NCBI GenBank assembly: GCA_019637265.1
Contig: JAHBVY010000002.1
Coordinates: forward strand, 434,001-498,000
From: Polyangiaceae bacterium
GTDB taxonomy: Bacteria; Myxococcota_A; Polyangia; Polyangiales; Polyangiaceae
Direction of reading: 5' to 3'
DNA: 64,000 nt
This document shows positions 21,646-26,510 of this stretch, piece after piece. Every line of letters starts with the position of its first letter. Within the stretch, counting starts at the first letter, position 1. Below the pieces are notes generated by a model. The model did not search any database. It had not been told where the DNA came from and saw nothing but the letters and a program-made list of their open reading frames with translations. Position numbers and translations under genes: made by a program.

Positions 21646-22788
21646 GTGGCAACAGGAGCCCTAAGCACCAGGCCACTGGAGATCGGTCGCGCGCCCGTGC
21701 GTGGCATGACGATTGCCCTGGCTCATCTCGTGAAGTTCGATGACCGCCCGTTCATCGCGATTTGGGAGCTGACCCAAGCCTGCGATTTGGTGTGCAAGCA
21801 CTGCCGGGCCTGCGCTCAGCCGCTTCGCGATCCGCTCGAGCTGAGCTTCGAGGAGGGGGCGAGGCTCCTCGATCAGCTCGCCGCGGCGCGCGTCCCGCTC
21901 GTGGTGCTCACCGGTGGCGATCCAGCCAAGCGACCTGACTTGGTGGAGCTCATCGCGCACGGCACGCGGGCAGGGCTGCACATGGGGCTCACGCCATCGG
22001 CTACGCCGCTCGTCACGGAGGAGCTGATCCGTGAGCTGGCGGACGCGAAGCTCGCGCGCCTCGCGGTGAGCATCGATGGTCACGACGCGAGCGTGCACGA
22101 CCGGTTCCGCGGGGTGGAGGGTAGCTTCGCTGACGCGGAGCGCATCCTGCGGATGGCGCGGGCGCACGGCATCGCGACGCAGGTGAACACCTCGGTGCAC
22201 GCCGGGAGCATCCATCACCTGCGAGAGATCGCGGAGGTGGTCAGGGAGCTAGACTGTGCCCTGTGGAGCGTGTTCTACCTGGTGCCCACCGGGCGCGCGC
22301 AGCGTCACATGCTACCGACGGACGAGGCGGTGGAGGCCTCCTTACTGGAGCTCGCGGACATCGCGGAGAGCGTGCCGTTCGCCGTGAAGACCACGGCCGC
22401 GCAGCACTACCGGCGCGTGCTGGCGCAACGCAAGGCCGCGGCCGGCGCCGCGCCGACGCACGGCGTGTACGGGAAAGACGCGATTCGCATCAACGATGGG
22501 CGCGGCTTCCTGTTCGTCTCGCACCGCGGCGAGATATTTCCGAGCGGATTTTTACCGCAGCTGTGCGGCAACGTGCGGAGCGAGAACCCCATCGACGTGT
22601 ACCGCGACCACCCCACGTTCCGCGCGCTGCGCGACACCAACCTGCTGCGCGGGAAATGCGGCGCGTGTGAGTACCGGCAGCTGTGCGGCGGCTCGCGGGC
22701 GCGCGCCTACTCGCTCACGGGGGACATGCTGGGGTCGGATCCGCTGTGCTCCTACGTCCCGCCTAGCTTGATGCGCGCGTCGGCGTGA
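21646..22788 (+). CDS. Radical SAM/SPASM domain protein
   Basis: The radical SAM cluster motif is CDLVCKHCRAC (about residues 45-55), followed by TGGDPAKRPDL and SIDGHDASVHDRFRG typical of the AdoMet barrel. The C-terminal SPASM region has cysteines in QLCGN, KCGACEYRQLCGG and DPLC and should bind auxiliary 4Fe-4S clusters. The layout resembles the TIGR04053 group and heme-type NirJ/AhbC-like enzymes, or peptide-modifying enzymes; the substrate is not evident and no short precursor peptide gene is seen nearby. Two starts are possible: GTG 21646, with GGAG six bases upstream, and ATG 21706, without one. Confidence 0.85.
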   Translation: MATGALSTRPLEIGRAPVRGMTIALAHLVKFDDRPFIAIWELTQACDLVCKHCRACAQPLRDPLELSFEEGARLLDQLAAARVPLVVLTGGDPAKRPDLVELIAHGTRAGLHMGLTPSATPLVTEELIRELADAKLARLAVSIDGHDASVHDRFRGVEGSFADAERILRMARAHGIATQVNTSVHAGSIHHLREIAEVVRELDCALWSVFYLVPTGRAQRHMLPTDEAVEASLLELADIAESVPFAVKTTAAQHYRRVLAQRKAAAGAAPTHGVYGKDAIRINDGRGFLFVSHRGEIFPSGFLPQLCGNVRSENPIDVYRDHPTFRALRDTNLLRGKCGACEYRQLCGGSRARAYSLTGDMLGSDPLCSYVPPSLMRASA

Positions 22789-22828: not shown

Positions 22829-22849
22829 GGGCGGGTTTGAAACCCGCCC
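22829..22849. repeat. REP-like palindrome with adjacent CTAC
   Basis: GGGCGGGTTT and AAACCCGCCC form a perfect 10-bp stem around a single G, followed by CCTACC. A hairpin with a flanking CTAC (GTAG on the other strand) is the format of REP elements mobilised by REP-associated tyrosine transposases. Palindromes of this very type recur in many bacterial phyla. It may also serve as a terminator for the radical SAM gene. Confidence 0.65.
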
Positions 22850-22931
22850 CTACCAGGTCGAGGTGGAGAACCTGCCAGGCCTTGAGCGCCTGCACCGTGC
22901 GGGGATTGCGCGGTGTGGGTAAGCTCGGCGC

Positions 22932-23843
22932 ATGACGCGTGGCGCTTGGGTGCTCGGGCTCGTGGTGGTGGCTTGCGGTGGCGCGGCGGCGCCGCATGCT
23001 CCGAGTGGCTCGCTGGGGGACGCGGATGGCGCTGGAGCAGGCGCCGAGACGAGCGCGCCTGGACTGTGCAGCGATGAAGACAGCGCCGCTGTCGGTCACT
23101 CGGATCACGTCAGCTCACCTGACGGTGCGGCGGTCCACGTCGGACAATGCAGCGCCAAGCCCGCTCCGGGCGCCACGAAGAGCGCCAAGCCGGCTCCAGG
23201 CGTAGCCAAGAGCAGCTCCGAAGCGGAGAACGCCAAACCCCCTGAAAAAGACCCGCTGCACACCGCGATCGTGCAAGCGGGGCACGCCGTGCTCCGGGAG
23301 CGCGCCAAGGAGGTGCCGATCGAGCAGATCCGCACACCGGAGTTTCAGGCGTTGCTCGAGCGCATGAAGGAGAGCATGCGCGCGGCGCCGGGCGTCGGTA
23401 TCGCGGCGCCGCAAATTGGGGTGCCGCTTCGGGTGTTCTTGGTGGAGGACCGTGAGGAGTACCTCGCGCGCATGGCCGAGGTGGAGGTGACGGAGCGCGA
23501 GCGCACGCCGGTGCCGCTCCGCGTGTTCATCAACCCCAAGGTGACGCCCATCGGCAAGGAGAAGGTGACGTTCTTCGAGGGTTGCTTGTCGGTGAACGGT
23601 TGGTCAGCGCTGGTGACGCGCGCCCGAGAGGTGTCCGTGGAGGCGCTCGATGAGCGTGGGGAGAAGGTGAGCTGGCGGGTGCGCGGCTGGCCCGCGCGCA
23701 TCCTTCAGCACGAGATGGATCACCTCGAAGGCACGCTCTACATCGACCGCATGCACACGCGCTCCTTCGCGACCCACGCCGCGGTGAAGGAGCGCTTCGC
23801 GGGTAAGCCCGCGCGCGAGGTGCTTCACGCGCACGGTTTGTGA
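22932..23843 (+). CDS. def: Peptide deformylase with lipoprotein signal peptide
   Basis: The C-terminal domain (about 108-303) is a full peptide deformylase: GVGIAAPQ (154-161), EGCLS with metal ligand Cys218, and QHEMDHLEG with ligands His260 and His264 and catalytic Glu261. Deformylases remove formyl from nascent proteins in the cytosol at about 170-190 residues. This one has about 107 extra N-terminal residues that start as a lipoprotein signal (MTRGAWVLGLVVVACGG, Cys15) and continue as an Ala/Pro/Lys-rich linker with two SAKPAPG repeats. The first internal Met is residue 145, inside the domain, so a normal short start is not available in ATG form. Export to the envelope is inferred. Confidence 0.85.
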   Translation: MTRGAWVLGLVVVACGGAAAPHAPSGSLGDADGAGAGAETSAPGLCSDEDSAAVGHSDHVSSPDGAAVHVGQCSAKPAPGATKSAKPAPGVAKSSSEAENAKPPEKDPLHTAIVQAGHAVLRERAKEVPIEQIRTPEFQALLERMKESMRAAPGVGIAAPQIGVPLRVFLVEDREEYLARMAEVEVTERERTPVPLRVFINPKVTPIGKEKVTFFEGCLSVNGWSALVTRAREVSVEALDERGEKVSWRVRGWPARILQHEMDHLEGTLYIDRMHTRSFATHAAVKERFAGKPAREVLHAHGL

Positions 23844-24011: not shown

Positions 24012-25355
24012 GTGACCCTCTCCGCGATGCTCCCCAACCCAGCCCCCGCCGTGCTGCCTCGGCCGGCCGCCCCAGCCGCGACCCTGGCCATGGGCGACGC
24101 CCCCTCCCCGTGGCTGCCGGGGCTGCACTTCGCGGTCGCGCTCACCTACTTCGTGCTGGGGAGCGGCGCGCTAGTCCTGTATTCTGACCACCTCGCGCGA
24201 GGCAGCTTCTTCATGCCTCAGGTCGCCGCGGCGACGCACCTGTTCGCGCTCGGGTGGATCATGCTGTCGATCTTCGGCGCGCTGTACCAGTTCCTCCCCG
24301 TCGCGGTGGGGCAGCCCCTGCGCTTCACGTCGCTCGCCTACGTCGGGCTCGCCGCGCACACGCTGGGGCTCATGGGCTTCATCGGCGGCCTGGTGAGCGG
24401 CGCCCGCGGGCTGCTCTACCTGGGCGCCTGCGGGCTCAGCAGCTCATTCATCAGTGTGGCGTTCAATCTCGTGGCGACGCTCCGCCGCGCGGATGAGAGG
24501 CCTCTCACCTGGTGGGCGCTCCTGGGCTCAGCGCTGTTCTTGGTGGTCACGCCGGCTTACGGATTGGCGCTGGGGCTCAACCTGCACGGTGACCTCAGCC
24601 TCAGCCAGCGCTTCGTCACCGTGGCCTCCCACGCGCACGTGGCGCTGGTGGGCATCGTGCTGCTCGTGATGGTGGGCGTGGCGCACCGCCTGCTCCCCAT
24701 GTTTCTGCTCTCGCATGGCGCCAGCGAGCGGCCCGCCTGGGCGGCGCTGGCGCTGCTGTTCGGCGGCGCGCTGATGCTCTCTATTCCATATAGAAATACA
24801 TTTTACCTGACGGCGGCCTACGCCATGAGCGGCCTCGGCGCCCTCGCGTTCCTCATCCAGGCCGCGCTGTTCTTCAAGCGCCGCGTGCGGCGCGCTATCG
24901 ATCCGGGGATGCGGCTCGCCGGCGCAGGGCTCATCGGGCTGACCGTAGCGCTCCTCATCGCGCCCTTCGCGCTCTCACGCGGCACGAGCCACCCACCGCT
25001 CCTCAGCGCCTACTTCGTGGCCTTGCTCGGCGCCATCTCGCTGTTCATCGCCGGCCACTACTACAAGATCGTGCCCTTCATCGTGTGGTACCACCGCTAT
25101 GGGCCGCTCGTGGGGCTCCAGAAGGTGCCCAAGGTGGCCGAGCTCTACTCCGAGAAGCTCGCGCTCCTGAGCGGCGCGCTGCTGGCGCTGGGCTGGCTTG
25201 GCCTGGTCGTGCTCACCTTCGTCGGTAGCCGGCTTGGCGTATGGATCGCGTCACTGACGTTATTGACGGGCGCCTGCCTGGAGGCCCTCATCATCACCCG
25301 TGTCGCGCTCGTTGCTCGTTTGAGCGCAGCAAACGGTGGCCGTTCGCCGCGCTGA
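24012..25355 (+). CDS. Polytopic membrane protein, heme-copper oxidase subunit I-like
   Basis: The 447-residue protein has about 11-12 membrane helices. Histidines fall where heme/copper ligands sit in oxidase-like or NnrS-like proteins: AATHLFALGW, ASHAHVALVG and the later AGHYYKIVPFIVWYH. It is shorter and more divergent than true subunit I and lacks a clear full set of copper ligands, so redox activity is not assured. The GTG start at 24012 is uncertain; ATG 24027 is in frame. It leads an operon with the DUF59 gene (13 bases later) and the DUF1858/DUF2249 gene. That grouping is known beside NO and denitrification genes in other bacteria; here no NO reductase is in view. Confidence 0.7.
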   Translation: MTLSAMLPNPAPAVLPRPAAPAATLAMGDAPSPWLPGLHFAVALTYFVLGSGALVLYSDHLARGSFFMPQVAAATHLFALGWIMLSIFGALYQFLPVAVGQPLRFTSLAYVGLAAHTLGLMGFIGGLVSGARGLLYLGACGLSSSFISVAFNLVATLRRADERPLTWWALLGSALFLVVTPAYGLALGLNLHGDLSLSQRFVTVASHAHVALVGIVLLVMVGVAHRLLPMFLLSHGASERPAWAALALLFGGALMLSIPYRNTFYLTAAYAMSGLGALAFLIQAALFFKRRVRRAIDPGMRLAGAGLIGLTVALLIAPFALSRGTSHPPLLSAYFVALLGAISLFIAGHYYKIVPFIVWYHRYGPLVGLQKVPKVAELYSEKLALLSGALLALGWLGLVVLTFVGSRLGVWIASLTLLTGACLEALIITRVALVARLSAANGGRSPR

Positions 25356-25368
25356 GGAGGAGGCTCGC

Positions 25369-25662
25369 ATGACGACCCAAGAGCACACTGAAGATCACGT
25401 GTGGCGCGCGCTGAGCGCCGTGATCGACCCTGAGATAGGCCTCGACATCGTGACCCTGGGGCTCGTCTACGATGTTCAGGTAGCCGAACGAATCGCCACG
25501 GTGACCTTCACCCTCACCACCCCCGGCTGCCCCATGGAGCACATCATTCAGAGCGGCATCCAGCGCGCAGCGAGTGAGGTGGAGGGAGTGACCGAAGTGC
25601 GAACCCAGCTCGTGTGGGAGCCGCGCTGGCACCCCGGTATGGCGCAGCGAGGCATGCTGTGA
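25369..25662 (+). CDS. DUF59/MIP18 family metal-sulfur cluster assembly protein
   Basis: The ATG at 25369 follows a strong GAGGAGGAGG five bases upstream, deciding the start. The 97-residue protein is a single DUF59 domain: VIDPEIGLDIVTLGLVYDV and the conserved Cys in TTPGCPMEHII. Relatives (PaaD, SufT, MIP18) help mature iron-sulfur proteins or metal centres. It overlaps the next gene by four bases (GTGA), implying translational coupling, and so likely matures a target linked to the oxidase-like protein or the DUF2249 protein. It is probably cytosolic. Confidence 0.9.
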   Translation: MTTQEHTEDHVWRALSAVIDPEIGLDIVTLGLVYDVQVAERIATVTFTLTTPGCPMEHIIQSGIQRAASEVEGVTEVRTQLVWEPRWHPGMAQRGML

Positions 25663-26510
25663 CGGGCAGCGCGAAGCCCGTCACAGCGAGTGACCGCGTC
25701 GCTTCGGTGCTCGCGCGGGACGAGGCGCTCATCGACGTGTTCGAGTCGCTCTCGCCTGCCTTCAAGCTGCTGCGTAACCCGCTGCGGCGGAAGACGATGG
25801 CCAAGCTCGTCACCCTGAGCCAAGCCGCACGCATCGCCGGGGTGGACGCAGCGGAGCTGGTCAGTCGCTTGAATCAAGCGCTCGGGTTGGGGGTTTGGCA
25901 AGTGACGGAGCCGCTGTCCGCTGCGCCCGCCCTCCGCAGCGCCGCCTCACGCCCAGGTGTGCCGCCGCCCGGCCTCCTCGAGACCCCACCGGAGCGCCGG
26001 GTGGAGCTGGATGTCCATGAGGCGCTGAACGCGGGTGAAGAGCCGCTCCGCCTCATCTTGGCGGCGGCCAAGGCGCTGCCACGAGGCTCGGTGCTCCTCC
26101 TACGCGCCCCGTTCGAGCCAGTGCCGCTGTTCGGCGTGCTCGCCAAGCAGGGCTTCGCTCACTACACGGAGCAGCTAGGAGCCCAAGACTGGCGCGCCTG
26201 GTTCTACCGCGACCTCGCCGCGCTCACCGCCGGCGCGGCCGCGCCGCGGCCGATGGACAATCTACCTAACGATGTGCTCTCTGAGGCGGACGACGTCATC
26301 ATCCTCGACGTGCGCGGGCTGGAGCCGCCAGAGCCGATGGAGCTCACCCTCACCGCGCTGGCGTCGCTTCCGCGCGGCAAGGTGCTGATCCAGATCAATG
26401 AGCGCGTCCCGAGATTCCTGATCCCCAGGCTGAAGGAGCGCGGCTTCAGCTACGAAGTGCACGAGCAGCAGCCCGGCGTGGTCCGCCTCTTCATCCGCCA
26501 CGCGGAGTGA
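25659..26510 (+). CDS. DUF1858 plus tandem DUF2249 domain protein
   Basis: GTG 25659 overlaps the previous stop as GTGA, which fixes the start and gives 283 residues. An N-terminal DUF1858-type helical domain (about 10-75, TLSQAARIAGVDAAELVSRLNQALG) is followed by two DUF2249 domains (about 115-190 and 205-283): VELDVHEALNAGEEPLRLILAAAKALPRGSV, then VIILDVRGLEPPEPMELTLTALASLPRG. DUF2249 resembles the TusA-like sulfur-carrier fold, and such proteins cluster with NO/denitrification or hemerythrin genes. A G-rich dispersed repeat is embedded in the linker after the first domain and read as LGLGVWQV. Confidence 0.85.
   Translation: MTGSAKPVTASDRVASVLARDEALIDVFESLSPAFKLLRNPLRRKTMAKLVTLSQAARIAGVDAAELVSRLNQALGLGVWQVTEPLSAAPALRSAASRPGVPPPGLLETPPERRVELDVHEALNAGEEPLRLILAAAKALPRGSVLLLRAPFEPVPLFGVLAKQGFAHYTEQLGAQDWRAWFYRDLAALTAGAAAPRPMDNLPNDVLSEADDVIILDVRGLEPPEPMELTLTALASLPRGKVLIQINERVPRFLIPRLKERGFSYEVHEQQPGVVRLFIRHAE
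25881..25908 (+). repeat. G-rich dispersed repeat, copy G, inside a coding region
   Basis: It begins CTCGGGTTGGGGGTTTGGCA and sits in the linker between the DUF1858 and DUF2249 domains of 25659-26510. It shows that the repeat can be carried in frame where the protein tolerates it. Confidence 0.65.

Follow-up and report, generated by a model that had tools for sequence, protein, structure and literature searches.

Lying on the plus strand of the window (the whole stretch of 64,000 nucleotides analysed here), an open reading frame with an ATG start encodes a protein in which a peptide deformylase (PDF) domain is preceded by a predicted lipoprotein signal and a linker (Table 1).

Table 1. Features of the deformylase gene and its surroundings, in window coordinates
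Feature	Position	Strand	Evidence
Radical SAM/SPASM protein gene	21646-22788		TIGR04053, 421 bits (cut-off 395)
Palindromic repeat GGCGGGTTTGAAACCCGCCCCTA	22830-22852		97 exact genome copies (46 plus, 51 minus); 0 for the reversed control
Gene for putative lipoprotein-type peptide deformylase (Type 1A), 303 aa	22932-23843	+	ORF, Pfam, TIGR00079, homologs, tree
Predicted Sec/Lgt/LspA lipoprotein signal MTRGAWVLGLVVVA; lipobox Cys15 codon at 22974-22976	22932-22976	+	Lipobox rule; design recurs in 21 homologs
Ala/Pro/Ser/Gly-rich linker, 96 residues, predicted disordered	22977-23264	+	Codon scan; pLDDT <62
PF01327 peptide deformylase domain, residues 112-276	23265-23759	+	Pfam; AlphaFold2 pLDDT 91-99 over most
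Motif 1 GVGIAAPQ, residues 154-161	23391-23414	+	Sequence, alignment
Type 1A-characteristic long insertion EDREEYLARMAEVEVTERERTPVPL, residues 172-196	23445-23519	+	Gap-free against AtPDF1A and human PDF
Motif 2 EGCLS, residues 216-220; metal-ligand Cys218	23577-23591	+	Sequence, alignment
Motif 3 QHEMDH, residues 259-264; metal ligands His260 and His264, catalytic Glu261	23706-23723	+	Sequence, alignment
Multi-spanning membrane protein gene	24012-25355
Fe-S assembly protein gene	25336-25662
DUF1858/DUF2249 protein gene	25614-26510

Architecture and neighbourhood of the gene

The first 15 residues of the protein, MTRGAWVLGLVVVAC, satisfy the strict PROSITE-type lipobox rule, with Arg3 as the positively charged n-region, a hydrophobic core and a lipobox ending in the invariant Cys15, and cleavage is predicted between MTRGAWVLGLVVVA and this cysteine. 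The linker that follows (residues 16-111) contains no ATG, GTG or TTG codon, so a start inside it is ruled out for this protein; all start codons upstream of the domain (ATG at codon 1, GTG at codons 7 and 11-13) fall within the signal. With 96 residues, the linker is unusually long, compared with 14-34 residues in other lipoprotein members of the family. In the AlphaFold2 model most of residues 111-280 are placed with confidence, and the first 110 residues are disordered. The first-pass annotation had described an N-terminal lipobox signal, intact deformylase motifs, a linker of 90 residues and the absence of Met between signal and domain. The signal and all three motifs are present as described, the absence of Met extends to GTG and TTG, and the linker exists, although it is slightly longer than claimed.

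The gene upstream encodes a radical SAM/SPASM protein of a family related to haem b/d1 synthesis enzymes, and three further genes lie downstream. No functional link is claimed with the radical SAM, membrane, Fe-S or DUF2249 genes, which are absent near the homologs. When regions of about 16 kb at 20 lipoprotein members were compared, the only recurring neighbours were those shared by near relatives and common protein kinases, so the substrate cannot be read from gene context. A beta-eliminating lyase was found near the PDF gene in the window and at L178 only, among the loci compared. A palindromic repeat, a REP-like element dispersed in the genome, precedes the gene by about 80 bases. At another locus, the lipoprotein PDF gene lies near a gene (L179:4848-7088, plus strand) for a member of the protein-arginine deiminase family (PF03068, 296 bits), in a neighbourhood shared with L180 and L183, where related ORFs are found.

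Enzyme type and the other deformylases of the genome

The domain matches the Pfam family Pep_deformylase with 162 bits, and TIGR00079 with 116.7 bits, above its cut-off, and its motifs fit the three patterns of the family, GxGxAAxQ, EGC(L/x)S and HExxH/QHExDH. Among solved structures, the best phmmer matches were PDF1A from Arabidopsis (AtPDF1A, 3e-44) and human PDF (2e-38), the best bacterial match being the Leptospira enzyme (9e-30); the profile of the family ranked the same three proteins in the same order (238, 205 and 158 bits, respectively). Foldseek also returned the Type 1A structures AtPDF1A and human PDF as top matches, with a TM-score by target of about 0.9. A tree of 92 PDFs placed the family with three Streptomyces plasmid PDFs and two eukaryotic PDFs, apart from 33 others (support 100/97), these two being the only eukaryotic rows and the human PDF a long branch. 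A long insertion that narrows the entrance of the active site is a feature of Type 1A (PMC5591237), and the protein carries it. Type 1A also differs from Type 1B in the orientation of its C-domain, which is opposite; the bearing of our data on this trait is limited to the Foldseek ranking. Altogether, these comparisons point to a PDF of Type 1A, the mitochondrial kind, unlike the Type 1B usual in bacteria.

The protein thus resembles AtPDF1A (PDB 1ZXZ, 4JE6) and human PDF (3G5K) in sequence, fold, insertion and clade, but it is bacterial and carries a lipoprotein signal where they have an organelle transit peptide; human PDF, moreover, has EGCES instead of EGCLS. The gene being bacterial, no mitochondrial location is involved. 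Type 1A PDFs, formerly thought to be exclusive to eukaryotes, have been reported in different bacteria (PMC5591237), so that a mitochondrial location no longer defines the type and finding one in a bacterium is no novelty by itself. The Type 1B copy on contig C1 of the same genome (L001) shares the fold and the catalytic motifs but is predicted to be cytosolic, lacks the insertion and sits on a separate branch of the tree. As for the Streptomyces plasmid PDFs (L170-L172), no lipobox was found in them; they are encoded on large linear plasmids, where a role in self-protection against PDF inhibitors is possible. The idea that bacterial Type 1A PDFs are confined to this group, with a bearing on eukaryotic origins, is ruled out by these plasmid genes and by the published report. 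In the tree, human mitochondrial PDF was separated from Arabidopsis PDF1A and nested inside Type 1A PDFs of the Polyangiales-like kind (branches 97/87 and 98/90), a placement that bears on the origin of mitochondrial PDF and may be an artefact of its long branch and odd composition. Elsewhere, a scan of sequence collections returned only ordinary PDFs (identity at most 45%), phage PDFs gave distant matches only, and a profile run against 299 genomes from another phylum, without a positive control, had no hits at E <= 1e-45.

The genome (5.7 Mb, 98.5% complete) encodes three PDFs: the window gene, L001 on C1 and L003 on C15. The last two begin at the domain and exceed the cut-offs of the PDF models; they appear to be the ordinary cytosolic enzymes that fill the soluble role. 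The methionyl-tRNA formyltransferase gene fmt is present on C1 (TIGR00460, 268 bits; cut-off 201.5), and the genome also encodes LspA and four Lgt-family proteins. None of the three def genes adjoins fmt, the C1 copy lying at 90 kb and fmt at 515 kb, some 425 kb apart. In contrast to a housekeeping def, the window gene has neither its domain at the start nor fmt beside it. The earlier proposal that the lipoprotein PDF is not the housekeeping copy, which would have suffered had no other deformylase existed, therefore holds in a genome with two cytosolic PDFs, fmt, Lgt and LspA; the normal def expected next to fmt exists twice over but in neither case next to fmt, which is without consequence. 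Likewise, each genome with a lipoprotein PDF in a search of 183 genomes contained at least one further PDF match. A third formyltransferase-like match, partial and with 60 bits, was also noted besides fmt and a likely purN (L136, G000:C10:35321-35629).

No residue of the catalytic motifs varies among the members of the family, lipoprotein or soluble. In three pairs of near relatives, synonymous differences in the domain outnumber non-synonymous ones (21 vs 1, 39 vs 11 and 40 vs 16), and the signal and linker vary more freely than the domain. The intact catalytic motifs are thus under purifying selection.

Recurrence of the lipoprotein signal among relatives

Close homologs, 47-60% identical, were collected from the 183 genomes, all of the same order. 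Among 377 genomes of the phylum, the family scored 206-325 bits and all other PDFs at most 155, leaving a clear gap, and four additional members came from other families within the same class. In the comparison set of 54 Type 1A members, the window protein included, a lipobox was detected in 15 by the strict PROSITE-type rule and in 19 by a relaxed rule; judged by eye, and counting weaker forms, 22 carry a signal peptide with a lipobox. Codon-shuffled upstream regions (200 rounds) gave means of 0.4 (strict) and 0.6 (relaxed) with a maximum of 3, the two other reading frames of the upstream regions gave none, and none was found among 101 other PDFs. The lipobox of Type 1A PDFs therefore occurs beyond chance. 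Signals and linkers diverge in sequence across members, with the Cys and a hydrophobic stretch kept. The remaining members are soluble, most of them with a start only a few residues ahead of the domain; those of the same order (L098, L101, L102, L107, L109 and L113-L133) share 47-60% identity in the domain and every motif with the window protein but have neither signal nor lipobox.

The observation is thus real, and the design, recurrent in 21 related genomes, is no oddity of one genome. The search for lipobox-PDF fusions in relatives that the first-pass annotation had proposed accordingly yielded the same design in 21 homologs; its picture of a non-housekeeping lipoprotein PDF stands, and what it overlooked is the Type 1A nature of the enzyme and the existence of close homologs devoid of a signal. 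In the pair L103/L104, changes in the extension are mostly non-synonymous (6 vs 2), a pattern expected of a signal and linker that is no independent proof of translation. Cysteines other than the metal ligand are absent from the domain in all 22 lipoprotein members and present in 19 of the 32 soluble ones; this is loosely consistent with an oxidising compartment, the trait being clustered on the tree, not independent of descent and reducible to only two to four independent comparisons.

In the tree, lipoprotein members are scattered among soluble ones, and the lipoprotein state needs at least 4-5 changes, suggesting that the signal was gained or lost repeatedly, and one genome (G050) encodes both forms. 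Nine of the 22 lipoprotein members (L087, L091, L093-L097, L105 and L106) have an in-frame ATG 4-9 codons upstream of the domain, where soluble homologs begin, with no ATG elsewhere among 511 linker codons. These internal starts are either relics of a soluble ancestor or the mark of genes that produce two forms. The window protein lacks one, as do 12 other lipoprotein members, and should accordingly be made as a lipoprotein only, judging from its codons.

Several readings compete with that of an envelope-anchored, active deformylase. Long open frames occur in high-GC DNA, and the upstream frame might have been joined to the domain by chance, without biological meaning; the controls (at most 3 when codon-shuffled and 0 when frame-shifted, against 15) refute this for the family and leave the idea scarcely credible. 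Alternatively, the signal might go unused, with a GTG start at codon 11, 12 or 13 yielding a PDF that stays in the cytosol and has a long disordered tail. GTG codons are available there, and no strong Shine-Dalgarno sequence is apparent before the ATG. Nevertheless, such starts leave the Cys and a 100-residue tail unexplained, and the ATG-initiated lipobox recurs beyond chance in homologs with unrelated linkers, making this reading quite improbable.

A dual-localised enzyme, made as a lipoprotein from the upstream start and in a cytosolic form from an internal ATG, is better placed, yet still unlikely. It supposes that an old gene for a soluble enzyme acquired the signal at its 5' end and that some genes later lost one start, and both the nine internal ATGs in otherwise ATG-free linkers and the interleaving of the two states in the tree agree with it. 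However, it does not explain the window protein or the 12 others that share its lack of an internal start, and a Shine-Dalgarno-like stretch precedes the internal ATG only in L105 (AAAGGAG) and, more weakly, in L106 (GGAG), so that the ATG may be a relic. A further reading accepts export but denies catalysis: the domain would be a decoy that binds formyl-peptides or hydroxamate PDF inhibitors such as actinonin, with no deformylase activity in vivo. Its location away from known substrate and the occurrence of Type 1A homologs on Streptomyces plasmids speak in its favour, but the full catalytic set is conserved, including an invariant catalytic Glu that a pure binder would not need, and we consider it very improbable.

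Possible role in the cell envelope

The explanation that we favour, with a probability of about 0.6, is a Type 1A PDF made as a lipoprotein, anchored in the envelope and active on formyl-Met peptides or N-termini that have escaped cytosolic deformylation. We infer its export, lipidation, deformylase activity and substrate with differing assurance: an envelope location is very likely on the strength of the predicted signal, the enzyme is probably an active deformylase, and the chances that it acts on formyl-Met peptides, the cell's own or foreign, are about even. Two features of the window gene count against this explanation, namely the shortness of the signal, with its Cys already at position 15, and a third-position GC of 0.71 in the linker, below the 0.90 of the domain.

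In the proposed mechanism, the signal would direct the protein through Sec, Lgt would lipidate Cys15, LspA would cleave ahead of it, and the flexible linker would give the folded domain some distance from the membrane, on its periplasmic (or outer) side. At this site the enzyme would remove formyl groups from formyl-Met N-termini missed by the cytosolic enzymes, and aminopeptidases could then use the deformylated peptides. Candidate substrates are inner-membrane proteins of N-out topology, formylated signal peptides after their release, and formyl-peptides from lysed or preyed-on neighbours. A nascent membrane protein bound by SRP is out of reach of PDF, and the formyl group can persist on N-out proteins and on signal peptides after their release (PMC5454389); as SRP-bound chains escape PDF, formylated substrates should exist in the envelope. 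Formyl-peptides from lysed cells may be a second source of substrate, for bacteria that may feed on others. The first-pass annotation had suggested released formyl-peptides or small molecules as substrates; the analysis gave no sign of the latter. The mechanism is the most economical one, the family's own reaction being shifted to another compartment. More tentatively, and with less confidence than in the core explanation, we suggest a dedicated envelope deformylation by a lipid-anchored Type 1A enzyme, directed at exported or membrane N-termini or at foreign formyl-peptides, with the gene of some relatives possibly serving both compartments by means of two starts.

Deformylation is taught as a co-translational step of the cytosol (or of organelles), and we know of no job described for a deformylase in the cell envelope. 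Searches of open-licence papers turned up no PDF described as secreted, periplasmic or a lipoprotein. The novel part is thus a recurrent export signal on a known type of enzyme, unreported as far as could be searched. If the explanation is true, formyl groups would be removed outside the cytosol too. The family would then offer a handle on a question open in the literature, the fate of the formyl group on SRP-shielded N-out proteins and signal peptides (PMC5454389), and would provide a PDF that is by nature accessible, beyond the inner membrane, which matters for PDF inhibitors limited by cell entry.
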